A DNA stretch of 64,000 bases from Bacteroidales bacterium (GTDB taxonomy: Bacteria; Bacteroidota; Bacteroidia; Bacteroidales; JAGONC01), in NCBI GenBank assembly GCA_028716265.1, contig JAQUQD010000004.1, positions 1 through 64,000 on the forward strand, read 5' to 3'. Under the pieces are notes generated by a model that was not told the origin of the DNA, did not search any database, and worked only from the letters and a program-made list of their open reading frames with translations. Made by a program: the position numbers and the translations under genes. This document shows positions 3,980 through 15,712 of the stretch, in pieces. The number at the start of each line of letters is the position of its first letter. Position 1 is the stretch's first letter.

Positions 3980-4720
3980 TTAGTGGTACATTTCCGACTT
4001 CAGGAGCCCGACGCGGTTCAGGAAATGCGCCAGGGATGTCTTCAGCACCCCGAACGCATAGATGGTGCTGTTCCGTAAATTGATGGAGGATGCTTCCTTG
4101 AAGTACTTCGTGGGGCAGGTGATCTCAGCAACCGGGAATCCCGCATAGATGATCTGCGACAGCATCTGGTTGTCGAACACGAAATTATCCGAGTTGGTAT
4201 TGTAGTTCACCTTTTCCAGCACCTCCCTCGAGAACGCCCTGTAGCCGGTGTGGTATTCTGATAATTTCTGTCCCACCAGCAAATTCTGTATGAAGGTCAG
4301 GAAGCGGTTGGAAACGTACTTGACCCACGGCATCCCGCCTTTAAGGGCGCCGTTGCCCAGGATGCGCGAGCCCAGTACCACGGGATAGACATCGTTGGCG
4401 ATCAAGAATGCCATGGAGTGGATGAGTTTCGGAGTGTACTGGTAATCCGGATGTAGCATGATGACAATGTCGCCTCCAAGCTCCAGCGCCTTGTTGTAGC
4501 AGGTCTTCTGATTGCCTCCGTATCCCTTGTTCCGGTCATGGACCACGATATGCCGGATTCCGATCCGGTGCGCCAGTTCGGCTGTCCGATCGAGGCTTTT
4601 ATCGTCCACCAGCACTACCTCATCCACGATATCAAAGGGGATCTCCTGATACGTCTGTTCCAGCGTCATCTCTGCATTATATGCGGGCAGGACGACGATT
4701 ATTTTCTTGCCGTTGATCAT
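3980..4720 (-). CDS. Glycosyltransferase family 2
   Basis: A 246-residue GT2 enzyme. Visible motifs are VVLPAYNAEMTLEQT at the N-terminus, VLVDDKSLD for the nucleotide site, the acceptor-side DRNKGYGGNQKTCY, and HPDYQYTPKLI at the DxD-equivalent position (HPD). No transmembrane helix is obvious. The KGYGGNQKT block is typical of bacterial GT2 enzymes annotated near dolichyl-phosphate mannose synthases. It is the last gene of a minus-strand cluster, starting 10 bases after the stop of the membrane glycosyltransferase. A plausible role is making the polyprenyl-phosphate sugar used by that membrane enzyme (inference). Confidence 0.9.
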   Translation of the reverse strand: MINGKKIIVVLPAYNAEMTLEQTYQEIPFDIVDEVVLVDDKSLDRTAELAHRIGIRHIVVHDRNKGYGGNQKTCYNKALELGGDIVIMLHPDYQYTPKLIHSMAFLIANDVYPVVLGSRILGNGALKGGMPWVKYVSNRFLTFIQNLLVGQKLSEYHTGYRAFSREVLEKVNYNTNSDNFVFDNQMLSQIIYAGFPVAEITCPTKYFKEASSINLRNSTIYAFGVLKTSLAHFLNRVGLLKSEMYH

Positions 4721-4730
4721 ATCCGGCTGA

Positions 4731-6797
4731 TTAGTTGAGTTTTACGATCTCCAGATCGTCGAAATGAACGGTTTGTTTTCCGCTGTTCCAAAGGTACACC
4801 TTCAGCGGATCATCTCCAAGACCTTCGGGAACCGTCACGTACATCACCAGCTGTCTCCACCCTTTCGCGTCCGTACGGATGTTGTCGTTCACTGCTTTGT
4901 AGAACACGCCAGGTTTGTCAGAGGCTGCCACCAGGTGGCTTTCATAATAATCTTCAAGCCGCCAGACGCTGAGCCGGTAGCGGTCGCCGGATTTAAGTCC
5001 CGTGAGGGCATACTCCAGTCCGAAGCGGTTCTTTGTGTCAAGCTTGACAGAACAGGATCCTGACCGGGCCTTTTCCCGGGATTGCAGCCAGCCTCCTCCG
5101 AATGTATATGCCTGGTTGACAAAACAGGAGCGGTCATCCGTAAGAGAATCGGCGTCACAGAAAATCCGTTCGCCGGAAGGTGCATCCAGGCGGGTTATCA
5201 GGGGCTCAATGGCATTGGTATCCAGTTCGTAAAGCGAATGAATACGGCCACGGTACACTTCTTTCAGGGGGAAGCCTTTCCGGCCGATGGTAGCCACTTC
5301 CTCACCGGAGATTGCCCGGCTGATAAAGATGATCTTTTTGCCCGACATCCGCAGGATGTCTTCCATGCTCATCTCTGCTTCCCAGTTGTAAAAGAGGTAT
5401 GTCCTGCCATCATAGAACCAGGTTTCGGGGTACACCGCTTTCCGCTCGGGCAGGATCATTCGTTTGGCATAGGCACTCTCGAACTTCAGCGCGGAGAATT
5501 TGTTGATGGTGTTGGGATAGTAATATACCCGTGTAAAGCCGGCAAATTGAGCATCGACGCGAGAAAGAGTGGCATCCGTTTCCTCGTTCGTGATGCGGTA
5601 GTAATGATCTGCAGTCTTCAGGTAGGGTATGTTTCCTATTACGAAAATGACCACCAGACCGGTAAACAGGACCGGTGAGGCGATCCGTGTCAGTGCTGGC
5701 CTCCTGATGAGGCGTTCAAGGCTCAGGATGATCAGAAAGACGGCCAGTCCAAGGAATCCCTGTGCGGGAAGAAGGTAGTGGTTGGCATGGTAGTGTTTGG
5801 CCACGATCACGATGCTGAGGGCGATCATGAATGTAATGGCGGAGAGAAGCTTCACCGAGGGTATGGGGCCGTCATGCTTTTCGACAGGCGCCCGCCGGAT
5901 GATCTTTCGGATCAGGAAGGTGGCCAGCAGCGTCAGGGAAACGAAGAAAACCGCTGTCATCACGGGATTCGTAACGAAGATCTGAGCAATGTTGCTGAGA
6001 TAGGTCTGTGTATCTATGACGCCCCTGCTGCCCTGTCCGTAAATGCCTGTATGCGTGGATAGCCGGTAGAACCAGTCGAACATGTGTCGGTACTCCGGGA
6101 AGGCTGGAGAGGTGAATAGAACAAACGTCACCGCCGTTCCGGCGACGAAGAGGCTCTTTCGCAGCCAGCCGCTCAAACGAAGCAGAGGGATGAAGAACAG
6201 AGGGAAATAGGTGGCTTTGGTGGCCAGTCCAAATCCTGAAAGAAGAGCAAAGAGGATCACATATTTCCATGAGTCCCTGTCTGGATCATAGAGATAATAG
6301 ATTAGGGCCATCACCATCAGTGTGGTTACCATGAACAATACGGGTTCCGGCGAGACTTTGGTCCAGACGTGTTCCAGTACGTTGGCCGACAGGAAGGGTG
6401 TGAACTGAAAGATCAGTGCATGCCAGAGGGAGCCCGTTTTCTTCCATCCCACCCATCCCAGCAGGATCAACAAAAGGGCGATGAGTATGATAAAGGTCAC
6501 CCGGATCAGCTGAATGTACCGGTCGGGATCCCGGATCACCCTTTCGATCAGTAAATGGTCATGGTGCCCGTCGAATACGGAGGCCGTTGCCAGGATGGCA
6601 GCATTCATTTCCATCACCGTCGTGCCTGGATTGTCGATATGCCCGACAGGCTTTCCCTTTAACAGGTTCAGCGCGTTGACAAGGTAAATGTAATCGGGAT
6701 CGTTGGCGTAATGGGTCCTGTTGAAGGGGATCCCAAACAGGAGAAAAAGCGCTGGCAGGATCAGTAAGGCAAGGATGGGGGCGGATTTTCTCATCAT
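4731..6797 (-). CDS. Membrane glycosyltransferase (PMT/ArnT-like) with C-terminal jelly-roll module
   Basis: A 688-residue protein. The N-terminal two thirds carry about ten hydrophobic helices. A loop after the first helix contains THYANDPDYIY with the acidic pair expected for GT39/ArnT-like polyprenol-dependent transferases, followed by a second block HIDNPGTTVMEM. Residues about 538-688 form a soluble beta-rich domain resembling a carbohydrate-binding jelly roll. This module is clearly related to residues 41-185 of the CotH-like protein at 8276-11299: both share RSG..S.KL, GW.Q, Y.WN and FDDL in the same order and spacing. The enzyme probably moves a sugar from a lipid carrier to an extracytoplasmic acceptor, with the jelly roll binding the acceptor (inference). 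It lies 10-16 bases from both neighbours, so it is in an operon. Confidence 0.8.
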   Translation of the reverse strand: MMRKSAPILALLILPALFLLFGIPFNRTHYANDPDYIYLVNALNLLKGKPVGHIDNPGTTVMEMNAAILATASVFDGHHDHLLIERVIRDPDRYIQLIRVTFIILIALLLILLGWVGWKKTGSLWHALIFQFTPFLSANVLEHVWTKVSPEPVLFMVTTLMVMALIYYLYDPDRDSWKYVILFALLSGFGLATKATYFPLFFIPLLRLSGWLRKSLFVAGTAVTFVLFTSPAFPEYRHMFDWFYRLSTHTGIYGQGSRGVIDTQTYLSNIAQIFVTNPVMTAVFFVSLTLLATFLIRKIIRRAPVEKHDGPIPSVKLLSAITFMIALSIVIVAKHYHANHYLLPAQGFLGLAVFLIILSLERLIRRPALTRIASPVLFTGLVVIFVIGNIPYLKTADHYYRITNEETDATLSRVDAQFAGFTRVYYYPNTINKFSALKFESAYAKRMILPERKAVYPETWFYDGRTYLFYNWEAEMSMEDILRMSGKKIIFISRAISGEEVATIGRKGFPLKEVYRGRIHSLYELDTNAIEPLITRLDAPSGERIFCDADSLTDDRSCFVNQAYTFGGGWLQSREKARSGSCSVKLDTKNRFGLEYALTGLKSGDRYRLSVWRLEDYYESHLVAASDKPGVFYKAVNDNIRTDAKGWRQLVMYVTVPEGLGDDPLKVYLWNSGKQTVHFDDLEIVKLN

Positions 6798-6813: not shown

Positions 6814-7521
6814 TTAGATGGCCACCTGGGACTTAAACAGCAGGATGCCGTTGATGTACTTTGAGTTCTTGATCAGCCGGAACGGTAATTCGCTGGTGAT
6901 CTCATCGGCGACATCGTCCTGGTCAAAATCGTATTTCAGCTCCAGCACCACCTCCGTGTGGATGGAACGGGCCCTCTCAAACTTGTTGGGAAGAGTATAA
7001 ACGTCAAAATACTGCAGCTGGTCGTCAATTGTGATCCTGAAACGGCGATCGTGGCTCTGATAATAACTTCTGTGATACGAGTTCAGGAGTGAGGGCTGAA
7101 GGATGGTCAGCTCATTCTGGACCCATTCAGGTAGTTCTGATTGTGCGAAAACCCTAATTATATCTTCGCCGGTCAATTCCTGGTCAACGTCAAAAGTTAT
7201 AAGGGGAAACGACAGCTTCCGGCCAACATAGCCATTTTTGATCTTGATCTCCAGGACCGGGTTCTGAATTTTGCCAAACAGTTCCCCGTACCATCGTATA
7301 CGGAATTTTTTCCGGTCGGAGCTGCCGTAAATATTATCATAGAAGAAGCGCAGGGAGGGGGTGTCGAAGTACAGGTTGTTGACCTGGCGTTGTTTAAAAA
7401 TGGGTGAAAACACTGCCGGGTGAAACCGGATGATCATTTCTGCCTGAGAACGGGAATACGGGTGGATAAGAAATTTCCTTTCGAACCGTTGCCGGGTCAG
7501 GGGGGTATACTCGGTGTTCAT
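6814..7521 (-). CDS. VTC domain protein (polyphosphate polymerase-like, TTM superfamily)
   Basis: A 235-residue stand-alone VTC domain, related to the catalytic domain of the eukaryotic vacuolar transporter chaperone Vtc4, which makes polyphosphate from nucleoside triphosphate. Tunnel-fold blocks appear in order: RFERKFLIHPY, NNLYFDTPSLRFF, KKFRIRWYG, LEIKIKNG, NSYHRSYY, RFRITIDDQL, VVLELKYD and KNSKYING. The basic and acidic residues that line the TTM tunnel (R/K of the FERKF, FRIRWY and HRSYY blocks, E of LEIK and LELK) are all present, so it may be catalytically competent. It is followed by the membrane glycosyltransferase and preceded by a DUF4956 membrane protein, so product or substrate could move across the membrane. 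The cellular product is not known. Confidence 0.88.
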   Translation of the reverse strand: MNTEYTPLTRQRFERKFLIHPYSRSQAEMIIRFHPAVFSPIFKQRQVNNLYFDTPSLRFFYDNIYGSSDRKKFRIRWYGELFGKIQNPVLEIKIKNGYVGRKLSFPLITFDVDQELTGEDIIRVFAQSELPEWVQNELTILQPSLLNSYHRSYYQSHDRRFRITIDDQLQYFDVYTLPNKFERARSIHTEVVLELKYDFDQDDVADEITSELPFRLIKNSKYINGILLFKSQVAI

Positions 7522-7536
7522 GATCCTGCGACCCGT

Positions 7537-8220
7537 TTAATACCCTTTGTTGTCGATGAAAACCACTTTTACATCGGGGCTGATCTTCTGCAGTTCTTCT
7601 TTGCAATCCTGGAGGTTCCCGGTCTGTTTGATTTCAACCAGAAAAGAGGCCTCTATCAAATGGTTTGATTCGTCGAAGCGTTTCAGTTCGGCAGCGCTGA
7701 AATTCTTACGCACAATGTCGCTGATCGTATTGAGCTGTATAAGGCCGGGTGAAGCACTTGAAATGGTAAGGTAGAGGTTCTGTTTCTCCGATTTGCGGGA
7801 TAAAAAGTGACGGGCCCACAGGATGGCCACAATGATCAGAAAGGCGATCACCACGATATTACGCTGGTTGGCCCCCAGTCCGAGTCCGATAGAAATGCAC
7901 AGAAAAAGGTAGGCCAGCTCTTCGGGCTCTTTGATGGCGTTCCTGAACCTGACGATGGAAAGGGCTCCGACCAGCCCAAGGGAAAGAGCCAGGGAAGACT
8001 TGACGATGGAGATGATCAGCATGGTGGCAAAGGCCAGGAGAATGAAGTTGGAGGCAAAACTTCTCCGGTTCGAAATACTTTTCCCGCATTTGAGATAGGT
8101 CCACCGTAAGATCAGCATCAATACGACAATGATCGCCGAGTTGATCAGAAAGTCGGTGACCGATATCTCTGATGTCTGGGTGATCAAAAACTTTTGAAAC
8201 AATTGCCATTTATCCTGCAT
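7537..8220 (-). CDS. DUF4956 domain membrane protein
   Basis: About 227 residues from the ATG at 8220. The longest open frame starts at 8298 inside the upstream gene and its extra residues are not membrane-protein-like. It has three or four transmembrane helices: about residues 18-38, 55-80, and two after 95. The family signature SLGLVGALSIVRFRNAIK followed by EPEELAYLFLCISIGLGLGA is intact, and a soluble C-terminal domain of ~90 residues follows. DUF4956 proteins are of unknown biochemical function. In my recollection they occur beside VTC-domain and CotH genes in several phyla. The arrangement here (CotH, DUF4956, VTC) fits a joint role, for example membrane transfer or anchoring of the VTC product. 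Confidence 0.88.
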   Translation of the reverse strand: MQDKWQLFQKFLITQTSEISVTDFLINSAIIVVLMLILRWTYLKCGKSISNRRSFASNFILLAFATMLIISIVKSSLALSLGLVGALSIVRFRNAIKEPEELAYLFLCISIGLGLGANQRNIVVIAFLIIVAILWARHFLSRKSEKQNLYLTISSASPGLIQLNTISDIVRKNFSAAELKRFDESNHLIEASFLVEIKQTGNLQDCKEELQKISPDVKVVFIDNKGY

Positions 8221-8275
8221 AACCTGATTTTTAAAGAGTGTAAAAATAGATAAAGTGATTGTATTTGGTTCGTTG

Positions 8276-11200
8276 TTAATAAAACATGGAGGCAACATCC
8301 TTTTTGTCTCCCTGTATGATGCTGTCGTTGAGTGTTACAAGTGATTTCAGTTCCACCCAGGTCGCATGCCGGATATTATCAAGCCGGATATTGGCTGCTT
8401 TGATGGTTCCCTCACCGTATTCTGGTTTTTTCCGGTAGGCAGCCAGGCCATAATTACAGTTAATCATTTCACAATCAAACACATTTAAGACAGAAAGATC
8501 TTTTGCAGCCATACCGATATTGCAATCCGTAACCGTGCAGTTCCGGACCGTCAGTGATGATTTCTCTCCACAGCTGATCCCCTTGTCGCCTGCCCTGACC
8601 ACGCTGCACTCTCTAATCTCAACGGTGCTTCCAGAGAAGTCGATAGCATCGTTACCCAGGTTGATATAGCGGCCGTTGATGACCGTTCCTGTGCAAAAGT
8701 CGTTGTCAAAAGCATCGGCAAAGGTATTTTCAAAGGTCAGGAGATCGGCCGTATAATCGCATCGGATCAGGTTCATCGCATCCTCACAGTGGTTATTGCG
8801 TACCACTGTTTCTTTTATATCCACGTCGGACTCATAGTACGTCACGGCGCCGGTGAGTGTCCATCCTTTATAATCCAGTGTATTAAGGTCTTCAAAGATC
8901 ACATGTTGCATGATGCACCGCTCTTTGGATTGCAAAACAGTGAATCCCATGGCTGTGGAATCGGAGGAGGTAATCATGACCGGATCCTGGGCCGTGCCAT
9001 TGAGAAAGACAGGTGAATTGGATATGAAACCCGCCTTATTAATGATATCCAGCTTGCACCCTGGCTCAAAATATACCCTATGTCCTGCCGGAATGATCAG
9101 GAATTCATCAAGAACATGCTTTCCTTTCGTAAAAATCACTTTATCCTGCTCCCTGACAAAGATCGTATCCCTTTCAAAAACACCCAGCTGTTCCAGCTCC
9201 CTTCTCGGATTACCCTCTGTCGGGTATGGCCAGGGGTTGACCGGGACAATGTAAGTCTTCTCTCGTCCCTTTACCCAGAAATAAAGGAACTGAACAGCCG
9301 TGTCCGATTCAATGAGAACGGACTGGTCCATGCCGGAAACAAAGGCAGGGACCGTGAAGCCGGGAGCGACGGGATAACGCAGCCGGTCAGGGCTTTTACC
9401 TGTACCCAATAAAAGGATCTCCTGGGTGTAATTATTAAAAACCCTCACCCAACATGTGCCTCCATCGGTCTTTTCCCTGTAGGCCTTTACGTACTGGGGC
9501 GGGAAAAGATCGTGGAACGTCGTATCATATTTTGTCAGTATCCTGAAATTTTTCAGAATTCTGGAGGCATAATCCGGATCCTCGCTGACCATTTTTTTAT
9601 ACCGCACCAAGGCTTCACGCACTCCGGCAGCGCTCTTCGATAAAAACTGCCTGTCATACCTGTAAAAAGGAAATTCCTTCTGGATCAGTTCCTCATTTTC
9701 AGTCAGATCGGATTCGATGGACTGCATGAACGTGTTGATAAATTCTCCGGATGAATATTTTTCAAGATACTGAATATATAATTTTATAAATTGTTGATCC
9801 TGAAATAGATAAAAAAGCATTACCTGGTGGGGCTCGATATCGGGTTTGCCGAATTTATCGATCTCGCCCAGAAACGCCTGGTTACCGACCGGCAGGATCG
9901 GCCCGTTGGTATATCCGTCAAAAACAATGGGTTCAAGTTTGCAGAGCACGGGATTATAGTACAGCCGCTGGTTGTGCCACGGAATGGCGTGCCAGGCCTG
10001 TGTCACATCGCAAATGGCGTAGTAGCGGGCCAGTTTGTCGAGATCAAACAACTCCGAAGGAGGCTGGAGGGTGTTTTTGAATTCATAGGCAAGGTTCTGT
10101 GCAATAAGGAACTCGGCCATGAGGGCCGGATCGGTCATGGTGCGTTTGACATTAAACGGCTCGATGACCGATGTTTCAAAACAGGGAAGCATATGATACT
10201 TTTTCGTCAGGAAGGCCACCTGCTGGATGGCCCAGAAAGCCTCTTCCGTCAATTTCAGGATGGGTCCTTCCCTGCGGTTCCTGGATTCGACCAGGTGTTT
10301 GTCGAAGTGTTCCTCGTAGGCATACAGGCCAAGACTTCGGTCGGTCAGATAGACCGGTATGAATTCGTATGAAGTGTTCAGTACATCCTCCTGGTCGCAC
10401 AGGCGGTGGGCCGCCCACTCATTGAGAAAATCGCGGGCCATAGGTGTTTGGATGGAAAATGTACGCATGTGCCTCCAGCCGTATTCCTTTCCAAGCTTGA
10501 TCCGGAACGACCATTTATCGCCGTACAGGTGATCGAGCCAGTCGCCTTTCAGGCGGACCTTTGCTTCCATCATATCACCGTCCTGGCCGAAAAACAGGAT
10601 ACCGGGTACCCAGGAGGAGGCATCCGTTTCGAGCACACCCTGTCCGAACGCTTTCATCCTGTCGCGCTGAATGGTGATCATGTCCACTGAATCGATGAAC
10701 AGGCGCAGGGGGCTCTGGCTGTATTCAGGGTATTGTTTCCGTGGTGAGGAAAAAACATGCAGGTCGTCGAAATAGATCGTGGTGGTGTCGGGATTCCAGA
10801 CGTAGATGATCATTTCAGCCTGGTCAATCGTGGGGGGAATAAAAAATTCAAGGCGGATCTGTTCCCAGCCACTGGGGTCAGTCTCCACCACATCCCGGGA
10901 AGCCTGGTAAAAATCATTATCCAGGATATCGGCCACCAGCACGCCGACACCTTTCGTTCCTTTTTTCCAGACCCTCAGGTCAAAATACTCATCGGCCGTG
11001 ACCATTGGAAGGGTGCATTTCAATCCGTACTGTTCATCAGGGGTTAGTTTTATAGAAGATTTCCCCGAACGGGACTGCTCTGCCGTCCGAAGATACGCAC
11101 TGCCCAACCGGTAGCTGGTATCTGTCGTAGTAAACGATGCCCCATCTGAGCTGACACTTTCCAGGTCGCTGAAAAAATCCCTCCCCGGATTGACTTTCTT

Positions 11201-11299
11201 TTCTTCCATGCAGGATATCAGCGAAAGAATCATAAAGAGCCCTCCGACAATCTGGAGGAATCTTCTTTTCCGCTTTAGATAGTGATCAAAAAGAAACAT
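8276..11299 (-). CDS. CotH-kinase-like lipoprotein with jelly-roll and right-handed beta-helix domains
   Basis: A 1007-residue envelope protein. The N-terminus has a basic stretch, a hydrophobic core and a lipobox (SLISC, Cys30), so it is probably a lipoprotein. Residues ~41-185 are a jelly-roll-like module also found in the membrane glycosyltransferase of the same cluster. Residues ~195-560 resemble CotH, the atypical spore-coat protein kinase: KVRLKGDWLD, WSFRIKLGKEYG, GLYAYEEHFDKH (Glu330), ICDVTQAWHAIPWHN (Asp431) and KLEPIVFDG (Asp461, the likely metal-binding Asp). Residues ~740-1007 carry short repeats of a right-handed parallel beta-helix (ECSVVRAGDKGISC, NCTVTDCNIGMAA). Likely role: extracytoplasmic phosphotransfer to a surface protein or polysaccharide (inference). 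It is the first gene of the minus-strand cluster. Confidence 0.82.
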   Translation of the reverse strand: MFLFDHYLKRKRRFLQIVGGLFMILSLISCMEEKKVNPGRDFFSDLESVSSDGASFTTTDTSYRLGSAYLRTAEQSRSGKSSIKLTPDEQYGLKCTLPMVTADEYFDLRVWKKGTKGVGVLVADILDNDFYQASRDVVETDPSGWEQIRLEFFIPPTIDQAEMIIYVWNPDTTTIYFDDLHVFSSPRKQYPEYSQSPLRLFIDSVDMITIQRDRMKAFGQGVLETDASSWVPGILFFGQDGDMMEAKVRLKGDWLDHLYGDKWSFRIKLGKEYGWRHMRTFSIQTPMARDFLNEWAAHRLCDQEDVLNTSYEFIPVYLTDRSLGLYAYEEHFDKHLVESRNRREGPILKLTEEAFWAIQQVAFLTKKYHMLPCFETSVIEPFNVKRTMTDPALMAEFLIAQNLAYEFKNTLQPPSELFDLDKLARYYAICDVTQAWHAIPWHNQRLYYNPVLCKLEPIVFDGYTNGPILPVGNQAFLGEIDKFGKPDIEPHQVMLFYLFQDQQFIKLYIQYLEKYSSGEFINTFMQSIESDLTENEELIQKEFPFYRYDRQFLSKSAAGVREALVRYKKMVSEDPDYASRILKNFRILTKYDTTFHDLFPPQYVKAYREKTDGGTCWVRVFNNYTQEILLLGTGKSPDRLRYPVAPGFTVPAFVSGMDQSVLIESDTAVQFLYFWVKGREKTYIVPVNPWPYPTEGNPRRELEQLGVFERDTIFVREQDKVIFTKGKHVLDEFLIIPAGHRVYFEPGCKLDIINKAGFISNSPVFLNGTAQDPVMITSSDSTAMGFTVLQSKERCIMQHVIFEDLNTLDYKGWTLTGAVTYYESDVDIKETVVRNNHCEDAMNLIRCDYTADLLTFENTFADAFDNDFCTGTVINGRYINLGNDAIDFSGSTVEIRECSVVRAGDKGISCGEKSSLTVRNCTVTDCNIGMAAKDLSVLNVFDCEMINCNYGLAAYRKKPEYGEGTIKAANIRLDNIRHATWVELKSLVTLNDSIIQGDKKDVASMFY

Positions 11300-11387: not shown

Positions 11388-12860
11388 ATGAATCCCAAGA
11401 AAAATCACATTATCCTGACATTGCTCCTGTGCTTCCTGCTGACTGCCGGCATGGCTCAGAAGCCGACCGGGAATACATTCGGGGGAGCATTGAATGAACA
11501 GGGAATTTGCTTTGACCTGACGGGCGACAATGGTTTCATCATTGCCGGGAATACACGGAGCATGGGAGCGGGAAGTAACGACATTTACCTGGTGAAGGTG
11601 AATCAGTTCGGGATGCCCGAATGGGAATATTCGTACGGGATCCAGTACCATGATTTCGGGATGTGGGTGGAACAGACGCGGGACATGGGATTCATCGTAA
11701 CGGGATACAAATGGGGGCAGGGACACGGCGGGGAGGATGTCGTATTGCTGAAGACTGATGCATTCGGTGAACAGCAATGGAAAAAATACATCGGTCACCA
11801 GCACCGGGACCAGGGATTCTGTGTCAGGGAACTGTCGGACGGATACATCATCACCGGCCATACGATGAGTTACACCGAACCCGGCGACATTTATGCGGTG
11901 AGAACGGATACAGAGGGCAACGTGATTTGGGATAACTATTTTGGGACCAATCAGATAGATTACAGTTATGACATCACCCCGGCTCCAGACGGACAGTTCC
12001 TCATTGCCGGTACCATGGGTGGATTTTACAATGTGGACCTGACCATTTTCCGTATCCCGGATTGCGATGCGCTGCTTGTCCGGATCAACGGTGAGGGGGA
12101 GCAGGTCTGGCAAAAACTTTATGGTGGAGACGGCCATGACTGGTTCTGGTCGGTGAGTCCCTCTCCCCAGGAAGGATATTACTGCCTGGGGTCCACCCAG
12201 AGCTATGGCTGGGGAAGTTTTGACATGTACCTGGTGAAAATTGACGATGCGGGAGAGGAACTGTGGTATAAGACCTTCGGGGGTAGCCGGTTCGATTATG
12301 GGCAATCGCTCAGCGTAGCCCCGGACGGGAACCTGTATCTTTTAGGCACAACACAAAGCTTCGGGCAAAATGGATCCACAGACCTGTACCTGGTCAAGAC
12401 CGATCCGCTGGGCGAAAAGATCTGGGAGCTGGTGATCGGGGGTGATTATTCGGATTACGGGCACTGCGTCAGGGCCACCCCGGAAGGGGGGTGTGTCATT
12501 CTCGGCGACTACCAGTGGGCGGATGAGACCAAAGATATATACCTGATCCGGATCGACAGCCTGGGTAACATCATATCGCTGGGAAGCGATGACGATCTGG
12601 CGGGGGAGAGTAACCTCTTCATCTATCCGAATCCTTTTACCAGCCAGGCCATGCTGCTGGTCAAAGACAGTTCCGCCCTGAAAGGGTACGACCTCATGAT
12701 CTTTAACCAGAATGGCCAGCTGGTGGAGCAGACAAAGAACCTGAGGTCCCAGAGCGTTCCCCTCAAACGCAGGCACATGGAGCCGGGCTCCTATTACATA
12801 AAGATCTCCTTTCCCGACACGCCGGGGAAAGTCCTGGTGGGAACCTTTATCGTCTACTGA
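11388..12860 (+). CDS. Secreted seven-repeat beta-propeller protein with T9SS type A sorting domain
   Basis: A 490-residue secreted protein with a signal peptide (about residues 1-23, ending in GMAQ). Seven repeats of ~50 residues follow. Each has the pattern GFIIAGxTxSxGxGxxDxYLVKxDxxGxxxW followed by a short YGG or FGG turn, consistent with a seven-bladed propeller. The last ~80 residues are a T9SS type A sorting domain (FIYPNPFTSQAMLL, LMIFNQNGQLVEQ, GSYYIKI, VGTFIVY). It is expected at the cell surface or outside the cell. Ligand or enzymatic activity is unknown; such repeats are often annotated as delta-60-like. It is transcribed away from the CotH-like gene, with which it shares a 12-base inverted repeat. 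Confidence 0.85.
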   Translation: MNPKKNHIILTLLLCFLLTAGMAQKPTGNTFGGALNEQGICFDLTGDNGFIIAGNTRSMGAGSNDIYLVKVNQFGMPEWEYSYGIQYHDFGMWVEQTRDMGFIVTGYKWGQGHGGEDVVLLKTDAFGEQQWKKYIGHQHRDQGFCVRELSDGYIITGHTMSYTEPGDIYAVRTDTEGNVIWDNYFGTNQIDYSYDITPAPDGQFLIAGTMGGFYNVDLTIFRIPDCDALLVRINGEGEQVWQKLYGGDGHDWFWSVSPSPQEGYYCLGSTQSYGWGSFDMYLVKIDDAGEELWYKTFGGSRFDYGQSLSVAPDGNLYLLGTTQSFGQNGSTDLYLVKTDPLGEKIWELVIGGDYSDYGHCVRATPEGGCVILGDYQWADETKDIYLIRIDSLGNIISLGSDDDLAGESNLFIYPNPFTSQAMLLVKDSSALKGYDLMIFNQNGQLVEQTKNLRSQSVPLKRRHMEPGSYYIKISFPDTPGKVLVGTFIVY

Positions 12861-12954: not shown

Positions 12955-14286
12955 CTATTCCATCCTGGGATCGATCTTGTTCCTTTTTTCACGTAACTTC
13001 TTATCCACAATCCAGACTGCGTCAATATGGATCATTTCGTCGACAGTAGCATTCCTTTTGGCAGCCTTTTCCCTGATCAGCTCCATCCACTCCTTGTTGT
13101 TCCGGATGTTGCGTTCTGCCTCAGCGATCATGGCTGCCCTTTCAACAGCCGCTTTTCTCCCCTCCACCGTAATCATATCGTACACCTGGTCGGTGAATCC
13201 AAAATCAAAATTAGACAACGTTGCATCAGTGGCCATTAAAATCACAAAATCCGCTGATCTCAGTTCAGCAGGAATATCCAGATCTTTCACCTGCTGATCT
13301 TTAGGATAGGGACCGTATGCTGCACGGAAATAGTACCAGAACTTATCCTGGCTATAGATCTTCTGAGTTATGCCCTTGCCAAAAAGGTTCCAGTTATAGC
13401 TGTCGGCAATGGTGATTACCACTGGTTTGAACGTAGATGCGTCCTCCCTGTAGTAAAATTCAGGATAGGGCATTGCATAGTGCGGGACATCGAAAATCAG
13501 ATTCATACCCCGGGCAATGTCATAATCAGGTACCCGTAATTCATGTGACATAGTCACTTCATTCCATCCAAAATCCACCATCGTTTTACCCTTATCCCGT
13601 TCCATGTATCTTATGATTGAATCCAGGACCAGCCCTTCACCGTAACTGCTCCAGTGAATGCCGGTCTTCGGGTAAAGCGGATAGGGCGCCTTGTCTTTGA
13701 TCAATGTGAACCATTGATTGGCATCGATGAACCGGATCTGTTTTTCTTTCAGTCTTTGCATCAGGTACTCCTGGTTAGTGGTATCCTTTTGCCAGGGTTT
13801 GAATTTATCAGGGATATATTCGGGGAAAAAAGTGCCTTTGCCCGGGGCAAAAACGATCAGCAGGGTGGTGCCGTTCCTGTCAAGGCTGTCGCTGATAGCT
13901 TTGAGCTTTTCGGAGTACCTGTCCCATTTTTCGGTTCCTGTGAAATCTCTTCCAAGATACGCCTTGATATAAAAAACTTCAAAAAGGAAGCCTTTCTTCC
14001 CGAGGATGACATCCTGTGCCAGGGCCATATTAAAACATGAAAAAGCGATCTGGTTATTGATCCTGACCAGGGCGGGCCGGAACCCGATGTGCTGTTCAAA
14101 ATAAGGAGTGTACAAATCCTGGAACGTACTGTTAAAGAAATCATGGAATGAAAAAGCAGGCTCTTTTGCCAGGACATAGGAGCCCTCAAGGGGTTTCACC
14201 CTGACCACCGGCAACACTTTCTGGAACAGAGGCAAAAAGAGCGCCACGACAATAACAGCATAGGTGATGTATTTAATCCTTGTCAT
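12955..14286 (-). CDS. AlgX/AlgJ-like SGNH O-acetyltransferase-family protein
   Basis: A 443-residue protein anchored by an N-terminal helix (about residues 6-23), with most of the chain outside the cytoplasm. It resembles the SGNH-hydrolase-like domain of alginate O-acetylation proteins AlgJ/AlgX. Visible are VILGKKGFLF near the start of the domain, the LLIVFAPGKGTFFPEYIP strand, GIHWSSYG (equivalent of the catalytic T-H-W motif), and VITIADSYNWN (the nucleophile Ser block). The C-terminal ~50 residues are charged and helical. It starts 4 bases after the MBOAT gene stop. The pair probably passes acetyl groups across the membrane to a polysaccharide; no alginate synthesis genes are nearby, so the acceptor is unknown. 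Confidence 0.85.
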   Translation of the reverse strand: MTRIKYITYAVIVVALFLPLFQKVLPVVRVKPLEGSYVLAKEPAFSFHDFFNSTFQDLYTPYFEQHIGFRPALVRINNQIAFSCFNMALAQDVILGKKGFLFEVFYIKAYLGRDFTGTEKWDRYSEKLKAISDSLDRNGTTLLIVFAPGKGTFFPEYIPDKFKPWQKDTTNQEYLMQRLKEKQIRFIDANQWFTLIKDKAPYPLYPKTGIHWSSYGEGLVLDSIIRYMERDKGKTMVDFGWNEVTMSHELRVPDYDIARGMNLIFDVPHYAMPYPEFYYREDASTFKPVVITIADSYNWNLFGKGITQKIYSQDKFWYYFRAAYGPYPKDQQVKDLDIPAELRSADFVILMATDATLSNFDFGFTDQVYDMITVEGRKAAVERAAMIAEAERNIRNNKEWMELIREKAAKRNATVDEMIHIDAVWIVDKKLREKRNKIDPRME

Positions 14287-14290
14287 GGAA

Positions 14291-15712
14291 TCAGAAACGG
14301 AAATAGATGAATGGATTGAATCCCTGGGATGTGATGGAGCTGGCGCAGATGATCAGCAGAAGCAGTCCTCCTGCGGCCATAGTCAGGATGATCCGGTCGT
14401 TTTGTTGCTTTGAAAAAACCCTTACCTGCCAGGCTTCGATGGCCCTGAAACCGCCGTAGAAGGCAAACAGGGCGCCCAGGGCCAGCATGGTCCAGAACCG
14501 CTTATCGAAGTCAAAGGCAGTTGCCGTGAAATCCAATGCGAACATCTGTCCGAGGTACGACCAGGCTGCCGGCAGGCCGTCGGCCCTGAAAAGCACCCAG
14601 CCGATCAGGGTAATGAAGAAGGTGATGACAATGCTGGGTATTTTGCCGATCTTTTTATACACCTTCAGTAAAAACAGTCGGTCGAGGACGAGAAAGGTCC
14701 CGTGAAAAGCGCCCCATACCACAAAATTCCACGCAGCGCCATGCCAGAGGCCGGAAAGGAGGAATACCAGCCAAAGATTGAAGTACATCCGCAGGGTGGA
14801 GACACGGTTACCGCCCAGAGGTATATACAGGTACCCTTTCATGAACCGTCCAAGGGTCATGTGCCACCGGCGCCAGAATTCAGAGATACTTTGCGAAATG
14901 TAAGGATTGTTGAAGTTTTCCGGGAATTCAAATCCGATCATACGGCCCAGCCCGATGGCCATATCCGAGTATCCTGAGAAATCGTAATAGATCTGGAAAG
15001 CGTAAGCCACCACTCCGATCCATGCCAGGGGTGTGGTCAGTTCAGCGGGAGAAAGGGCAAACACTTTGTCCACATATTCTCCCAATACATTGGCAATCAG
15101 TACTTTTTTAGCGAGGCCTATGGTGAACCTGAAGAAGCCGGTAAGGCGGTTATCCAGGTTTTCGTTGGCCTGGCGATCGTTGATCTGGTCAGCCACCTCC
15201 ACATACCTGACGATGGGCCCTGCGATCAGCTGGGGAAACATCAGGATGTACATGGCAAAATCCCACACATTGTCCAGGGGACCATGCACCTTTCGGTACA
15301 CATCGATGGGGTAGGTCATTTTCTGGAACGTAAAGAAGGATATCCCGATGGGGAGGGCGACGCCCGCCCAGGAAATTTCACCGGCCCCAACATTCTGGAG
15401 GATGGCGTTCAGGTTGTCAACAAAGAAATTAGCGTACTTGAAATATCCGAGCAGGGCGATGTTATGGATGACCGACAGGGTAACGATCTGTTTTCTTTTT
15501 CTGCCTGTGCTCCGGTGCATCCATCTGACCAGGTAGAAATCCAGGGTGATGGAAGCCAGAACAATGAAAATGAATTTGGGTGCGCCCCAGGCATAGAAAA
15601 ATATGCTGGCAATCAGCAGGATGATGTTCTTGTACCGTTTGTCGGACAGATAATATGCCAGCAGAAAGACCGGCAGAAAATAAAAGATGAAGAGGCTGCT
15701 GCTGAATACCAT
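14291..15712 (-). CDS. MBOAT family O-acyltransferase (AlgI/DltB-like)
   Basis: A 473-residue polytopic membrane protein. Hallmarks of AlgI-type membrane-bound O-acyltransferases are present: the N-terminal FSSSLFIFYFLPVF, PIGISFFTFQKMTYPIDVYR, MFPQLIAGPIVRY, YDFSGYSDMAIGLGRMIGF, SISEFWRRWHMTLGRF, and the invariant His in GLWHGAAWNFVVWG. About ten helices are visible. It likely takes acetyl groups from cytoplasmic acetyl-CoA and hands them to the AlgX-like partner encoded 4 bases downstream. The pair forms a short operon. A TAAATTTG -7 element sits at 15756-15763 on the same strand. Confidence 0.93.
   Translation of the reverse strand: MVFSSSLFIFYFLPVFLLAYYLSDKRYKNIILLIASIFFYAWGAPKFIFIVLASITLDFYLVRWMHRSTGRKRKQIVTLSVIHNIALLGYFKYANFFVDNLNAILQNVGAGEISWAGVALPIGISFFTFQKMTYPIDVYRKVHGPLDNVWDFAMYILMFPQLIAGPIVRYVEVADQINDRQANENLDNRLTGFFRFTIGLAKKVLIANVLGEYVDKVFALSPAELTTPLAWIGVVAYAFQIYYDFSGYSDMAIGLGRMIGFEFPENFNNPYISQSISEFWRRWHMTLGRFMKGYLYIPLGGNRVSTLRMYFNLWLVFLLSGLWHGAAWNFVVWGAFHGTFLVLDRLFLLKVYKKIGKIPSIVITFFITLIGWVLFRADGLPAAWSYLGQMFALDFTATAFDFDKRFWTMLALGALFAFYGGFRAIEAWQVRVFSKQQNDRIILTMAAGGLLLLIICASSITSQGFNPFIYFRF

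Follow-up and report, generated by a model that had tools for sequence, protein, structure and literature searches.

What does a bacterium gain by joining a CotH-like kinase region to a parallel β-helix? The question is raised by a gene in the window, a 64,000-nt stretch of Bacteroidales DNA. A sequence-only reading of this gene had recognized the two parts, had judged their fusion unusual among CotH proteins, and had noted that helices of this kind bind or cleave long polysaccharides. We examined the encoded protein, its relatives and their gene neighbourhoods.

Domain organization of the fusion protein

The gene is a single open reading frame, for which the following parts were delineated.

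8276-11299, minus strand: CotH-fold/β-helix fusion gene, single ORF, 1007 aa
11213-11299, minus strand: signal peptide with lipobox (hydrophobic residues 13-32); lipidation predicted at Cys30 (LISC)
10742-11182, minus strand: N-terminal jelly-roll, CBM16/CBM22-like, residues 40-186 (Foldseek)
9665-10711, minus strand: CotH-fold kinase-like domain, residues 197-545 (PF08757 and Foldseek)
9230-9664, minus strand: helical extension and β-sandwich-like linker, residues 546-690 (AlphaFold2 secondary structure)
8312-9157, minus strand: right-handed parallel β-helix, residues ~715-996 (PF13229; AlphaFold2 strands with 22-residue coils)

AlphaFold2 run on 79 aligned family members gave a predicted model with mean pLDDT 93.2 and pTM 0.90; the model from the single sequence was uninformative (pLDDT 34.5). 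When the fusion model was compared with the PDB using Foldseek, Bacillus cereus CotH ranked first, ahead of β-helix enzymes (5jd9, E 3.8e-9, target TM 0.65, 411 columns; 5jda, E ~4e-9). The jelly-roll matched CBM22 (4xup) and CBM16 (2zey) with probability 1.0 and E ~1e-3. Searching the PDB by sequence and profile returned no CotH or β-helix match for the protein, only a weak match to a galactanase CBM, and no NCBIfam model matched. Pfam CotH (PF08757) aligns to residues 248-533 with 29.3 bits against a cut-off of 23.8, and its score reaches 53 bits in relatives. Together with the PF13229 match on the same ORF, this bears out the proposed fusion. Based on its signal peptide and lipobox, the protein is predicted to be a membrane-anchored extracytoplasmic lipoprotein, a prediction that we hold as part of the tentative functional reading developed below. 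The strict lipobox pattern is matched by 39/79 family ORFs, with start sites as called and uncurated.

Conservation differs by part. Across 79 sequences, mean identity is 0.62 for the β-helix, where conservation is highest, 0.55 for the CotH domain and 0.44 for the jelly-roll; linker residues 546-680 average 0.32, the lowest value except for the signal peptide.

The fusion is an established architecture in Bacteroidota

A scan of species genomes yielded 520 confirmed stretches, from which the best 80 loci were taken forward. These contain 78 ORFs that are essentially full length, and they come from Bacteroidales, Marinilabiliales, Prolixibacteraceae, Saprospiraceae, Flavobacteriales and Chitinophagales. 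Nearly all of the 80 are from MAGs; records without a MAG mark include L111 and L113. Within the same order, long relatives are found at 26-80% identity, and a CotH-plus-helix member is present, by row count, in about 8% of the 393 genomes sampled. An 80% identical locus is named Lentimicrobiaceae (L065), which places the window's genome close to that family. No relative was found in the plasmid and phage collections searched. An assembly artefact or chance juxtaposition of domains is ruled out by the 78 near-full-length relatives on other contigs.

A further combination was found at L209 (6939-11000), where a 1354-aa protein consists of an LTD domain, a CotH domain, a probable β-helix and a secretion-tail domain, encoded beside VTC and DUF4956 genes. 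Its helix has an HMM match of 27 bits and no Pfam β-helix call; we regard L209 as a probable independent CotH plus β-helix combination. The fusion is thus a conserved, established architecture across Bacteroidota. It is uncommon among CotH proteins, as had been supposed, but with dozens of Bacteroidota members and the independent L209 it is no oddity of this genome. Exact-phrase searches of the literature, and a broader search among the matches listed, found no description of a CotH plus β-helix fusion or of the histidine substitution described below. Tandem copies of the family gene occur at L083, L085, L087, L129, L144 and L076; the second copy at L144 is fragmented by stops.

A charged ladder runs along one face of the β-helix

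Pfam Beta_helix (PF13229) matches residues 819-956 (E 1.2e-9, 38.4 bits against a cut-off of 25.9), other Pfam β-helix families giving sub-threshold matches only. In the AlphaFold2 model, the β-helix strand pattern spans ~715-996, most blocks of it having pLDDT 95-98. Structure prediction had been named as the check that could overturn the C-terminal helix; the helix is present, and at its N-terminal side the span proposed for it, 8276-9086, departs from the modelled ~8312-9157 by no more than ~25 residues. Foldseek matches to this part are dextranase 6nzs, K1 capsule lyase 7w1c, alginate lyase 6kfn and NosD, with low TM-scores for these enzymes, as the query is multi-domain and the alignments cross several domains. 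A 22-residue period in hydropathy autocorrelation was not significant (19% of shuffles reach the value). Conservation, by contrast, keeps to a 22-residue register, averaging 0.87-0.95 at offsets 0, 3, 5 and 6 and 0.39-0.52 at offsets 10-18. The case for the β-helix rests on this register, the profile match and the predicted model.

The most conserved positions include a set of polar residues stacked on one face.

8498-8782, minus strand: charged ladder, 95-100% conserved in 79 sequences

Its rungs are D840 N843 R846, D862 D865 D867, N883 D884 D887 S889, D905 K906 S909 E912 and K933 D934, followed by K957/K958/E960. A ladder had been anticipated, and one exists, but its composition is not the Asn/Cys/Val first described: Asp, Asn and Lys predominate, and the one conserved Cys, Cys838, is present in 96% of the family. 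From its sequence conservation, the ladder looks like a putative ligand-binding or active-site groove. No Pfam match to a defined lyase family was above cut-off. A GH28-like active site was considered from the Asp ladder and set aside, as no His counterpart was seen. Because the charged groove is invariant, a CBM-like domain is present and the neighbouring genes relate to glycan modification, the suggestion that the protein binds or cleaves long polysaccharides is plausible on sequence and model.

An invariant histidine replaces the catalytic aspartate of CotH

Two residues are central to comparison with characterized CotH kinases.

9989-9991, minus strand: codon of His437, which aligns with the catalytic Asp of CotH kinases (Asp228 in B. 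subtilis)
9917-9919, minus strand: codon of Asp461, equivalent of the metal-site Asp251 (matched in alignment to the 5jd9 PWD motif)

The Asp228 position was compared by aligning 20 family members with 5jd9 and 29 ordinary Bacteroidota CotHs; the helix before the site is gap-free in this alignment. B. subtilis numbering was carried onto 5jd9 by residue spacing and alignment; 5jd9 has a sole Asp pair spaced 23 residues apart, chain 224/247, corresponding to Asp228/Asp251. The position is Asp in 5jd9 and in 29/29 ordinary CotHs, and His in 20/20 aligned family members. In the full family set it is His in 79/79 sequences, and Asp461 is likewise retained in 79/79. Variation is absent or nearly absent at other residues of the CotH pocket too (K262, R289, E329, E344, N443 and R445). 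The usual CotH DxD has lost its second Asp in the family, as it has in some ordinary CotHs. The window's own genome encodes three further CotH proteins, L001, L002 and L003, of which L001 was covered in the catalytic Asp comparison; L001 and L003 have LTD-like and C-terminal sorting-type regions.

The CotH-like kinase assignment therefore holds for the fold and not for the catalytic residue. Since the fold is present and PF08757 scores above its cut-off while the catalytic Asp is absent, these proteins should not be classed as CotH protein kinases; judged from sequence, the accurate label is 'CotH-fold, His-variant, β-helix fusion family'. The substitution is not a feature of the gene cassette discussed below. 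An Asp-bearing CotH adjoins VTC/DUF4956 at L159/L214, and the alignments of L204 and L210 also show Asp. Because CotHs in this setting can keep the Asp, the His is tied to the β-helix-fusion family.

Could the protein nonetheless be an ordinary CotH-type secreted kinase of a surface protein, in which His replaces Asp functionally and the β-helix serves for adhesion or binding rather than catalysis? The above-threshold PF08757 score, a top fold match to a CotH kinase with Mg/AMP, and the retained metal Asp and pocket residues would fit. However, D228Q, at the very position that differs here, inactivates B. subtilis CotH; D251A is described as inactive as well (PMC7821199). In addition, His is invariant in the family and found in 0/29 ordinary CotHs, including one adjacent to VTC/DUF4956 (L159/L214), and the charged ladder seems too specific for a passive adhesin. 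We consider an ordinary kinase unlikely.

A second alternative is that the CotH fold is dead, serving as a structural or nucleotide-sensing platform, and that the β-helix is the enzyme. In a Ca-dependent reaction, it could act as lyase, epimerase or hydrolase on an acidic polysaccharide of the envelope; the metal would sit on the Asp ladder, and a Lys or Arg would be the base. The catalytic Asp is missing in 79/79 sequences, conservation is highest in the β-helix, and the fold matches to that part are glycanases and lyases, all as such a pseudokinase scaffold would predict. On the other hand, K262, R289, E329, E344, H437, N443, R445 and D461 are invariant or nearly so, a degree of constraint unneeded in a mere scaffold, and no active site of a known lyase was matched residue by residue. 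These considerations leave a pseudokinase scaffold somewhat doubtful, less so than an ordinary kinase.

Divergent members bear on how the two sites are related. Eight members without the jelly-roll keep the His and have a nearly intact ladder. L259 has Asn at the His437 position and has lost the whole ladder; L253 has Arg there and has lost most of it. These sequences are suggestive of coupling between His and ladder, on the strength of two losses only. Two further proteins, L255:3482-5050 (523 aa) and L256:2858-4561 (568 aa), keep the His in an ORF that has no β-helix, and hence the two features are not strictly bound together. In L251, His and ladder are kept and Asp461 is apparently lost. 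The joint losses also bear on a third alternative, that the protein is a non-catalytic envelope cross-linker whose β-helix and CotH parts bind calcium or polyanions such as polyphosphate, teichoic-like or uronic polymers. An acidic ladder, a lipoprotein anchor and a CBM-like domain would suit that role, but the mixture of invariant acidic and basic residues in two pockets and the joint loss (in two proteins) are more typical of enzymes, making a cross-linker quite improbable.

Gene neighbourhood

The fusion gene is the first in a same-strand run, in which it is followed by the genes below.

7537-8298, minus strand: DUF4956 membrane protein (PF16316, E 1.7e-16)
6814-7521, minus strand: VTC-domain protein, predicted polyphosphate polymerase (PF09359, E 1.6e-30)
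4731-6797, minus strand: GT-C-like membrane protein (no Pfam hit; C-terminal jelly-roll)
3980-4720, minus strand: family 2 glycosyltransferase, end of the run (PF00535, E 5.2e-17)

Intergenic gaps are 10-55 nt if DUF4956 starts at 8220, which is where homologs align and is probably the true start; the gap between the GT2 and GT-C genes is 10 nt. The DUF4956 protein has three long hydrophobic stretches. For the VTC protein, the closest PDB sequence is that of Vtc4 (3g3q), and the tunnel residues R70, K72, R74, R76, E91, K93, R151, R162, E194, K196 and K221 are at least 95% conserved. The protein thus has the profile and basic tunnel residues of a polyphosphate polymerase, the activity itself being a prediction. 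The C-terminal domain of the GT-C-like protein is the same CBM-like jelly-roll as that of the fusion protein (profile match, E 2.2e-35), and its gene is found with 85% identity and in the same order at a sister locus, L107. Proteins of ~600-700 aa similar to it are numerous across the order.

How general is this arrangement? DUF4956 and VTC genes both lie within 2.5 kb of the fusion gene in 33/56 informative loci, always on the same strand; the close pair is absent from the other 23/56. In the divergent members L250-L254, L257 and L258, one or both of the two genes are kept in altered order. Among VTC loci sampled from the phylum (L201-L220), DUF4956 co-occurs in 20/20, mostly with no CotH neighbour detected. 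The VTC-DUF4956 pair is therefore the core, and the third partner varies.

On the other side of the fusion gene lie the following.

11388-12860: divergent β-propeller-like gene
12955-15712: AlgX-like and MBOAT pair

AlgX-like and MBOAT pairs are typical of polysaccharide O-acetylation, and MBOAT/AlgX-type genes are also near the family gene in about eleven other loci. From the VTC-DUF4956 cassette, the jelly-roll shared with the GT-C-like protein, the GT2 and MBOAT/AlgX genes and the precedent of Gram-positive Pel loci, we infer that the context points to envelope-polysaccharide modification linked to polyphosphate synthesis.

A possible outer arm of a polyphosphate module

We tentatively favour, at less than an even chance, a reading in which the fusion lipoprotein serves a VTC-DUF4956 polyphosphate module as its outer arm, carrying out non-canonical phosphate chemistry on an envelope glycan or a partner. 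A long glycan of the envelope would be held by two parts of the protein, the CBM-like jelly-roll and the charged β-helix face. Either this glycan or a partner protein would undergo a phosphate-related reaction catalysed by the CotH-fold domain, which has His437 where Asp is usual, retains Asp461, and would work by a chemistry unlike that of Bacillus CotH. VTC, by analogy with the yeast enzyme, would make polyphosphate on the cytoplasmic side, and DUF4956 would be its membrane partner, possibly moving polyphosphate outward, although a channel role is a guess.

Several lines of evidence favour this polyphosphate-module reading: a confident model with fold matches for all three parts; the Asp228-to-His change in 79/79 family members versus 0/29 ordinary CotHs, alongside an invariant, register-locked ladder; joint loss of His and ladder in L259 and L253; the cassette in 33/56 loci, the 20/20 VTC-DUF4956 pairing and an intact VTC tunnel; and glycan-related neighbours, seen in the light of the Pel loci (PMC7112168) and yeast VTC (PMC10657179). 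Weighing against it are the 23/56 loci that have no close VTC/DUF4956 pair, where the fusion protein may work alone, the His without helix in L255/L256, the apparent loss of Asp461 in L251, and the fact that the joint loss comprises two proteins.

A more specific version, which we regard as a long shot, is that the protein is an envelope phosphotransferase fed by exported polyphosphate rather than ATP: VTC would make the polymer, DUF4956 would pass it across, and the CotH-fold domain would transfer phosphate to the glycan held by the β-helix, perhaps via phospho-His437. If true, this would explain the phosphate source of a secreted kinase-like enzyme. Where CotH in the spore coat obtains its phosphate donor has been stated as an unanswered question (PMC7821199), and a second question is what cotH-VTC-DUF4956 genes do beside polysaccharide operons (PMC7112168). 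With a widespread CotH-fold family that is His-swapped, fused to a β-helix and linked to VTC, both questions become testable in one operon.

Comparison with known systems

The family resembles the CotH kinases (PF08757; B. subtilis CotH; B. cereus 5jd9/5jda) in fold over ~350 residues, in scoring above the Pfam cut-off, and in retaining the metal Asp (Asp251) and pocket residues. It differs in the replacement of Asp228 by His (79/79), the loss of the second DxD Asp, the fused jelly-roll and β-helix, and its lipoprotein character. With PF13229/pectate-lyase-like enzymes (6nzs, 6kfn, 7w1c) it shares the coil fold, 22-residue turns and conserved charges on one face, whereas its helix is short, is joined to a kinase-like domain and has no identifiable known catalytic set; by profile and model, the protein qualifies as a PF13229 β-helix, with no lyase or glycosidase membership established.

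In yeast, VTC synthesizes polyphosphate at the cytosolic face of the membrane and delivers the product to the other side (PMC10657179). As in the yeast complex of Vtc4 and membrane partners, a VTC-domain enzyme with intact tunnel residues is found here beside a membrane protein. The extracytoplasmic partner is without a known VTC counterpart, and we claim no likeness between DUF4956 and Vtc1.

In Gram-positive bacteria, loci for the Pel polysaccharide include cotH, a polyphosphate polymerase gene and DUF4956 (PMC7112168). The genes annotated here in the window include no identified pel genes, and the window's CotH-fold protein has a β-helix and the His, the latter having been compared with ordinary CotHs of Bacteroidota and with 5jd9. 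What the two settings have in common is the same three kinds of gene, side by side, in a glycan context.
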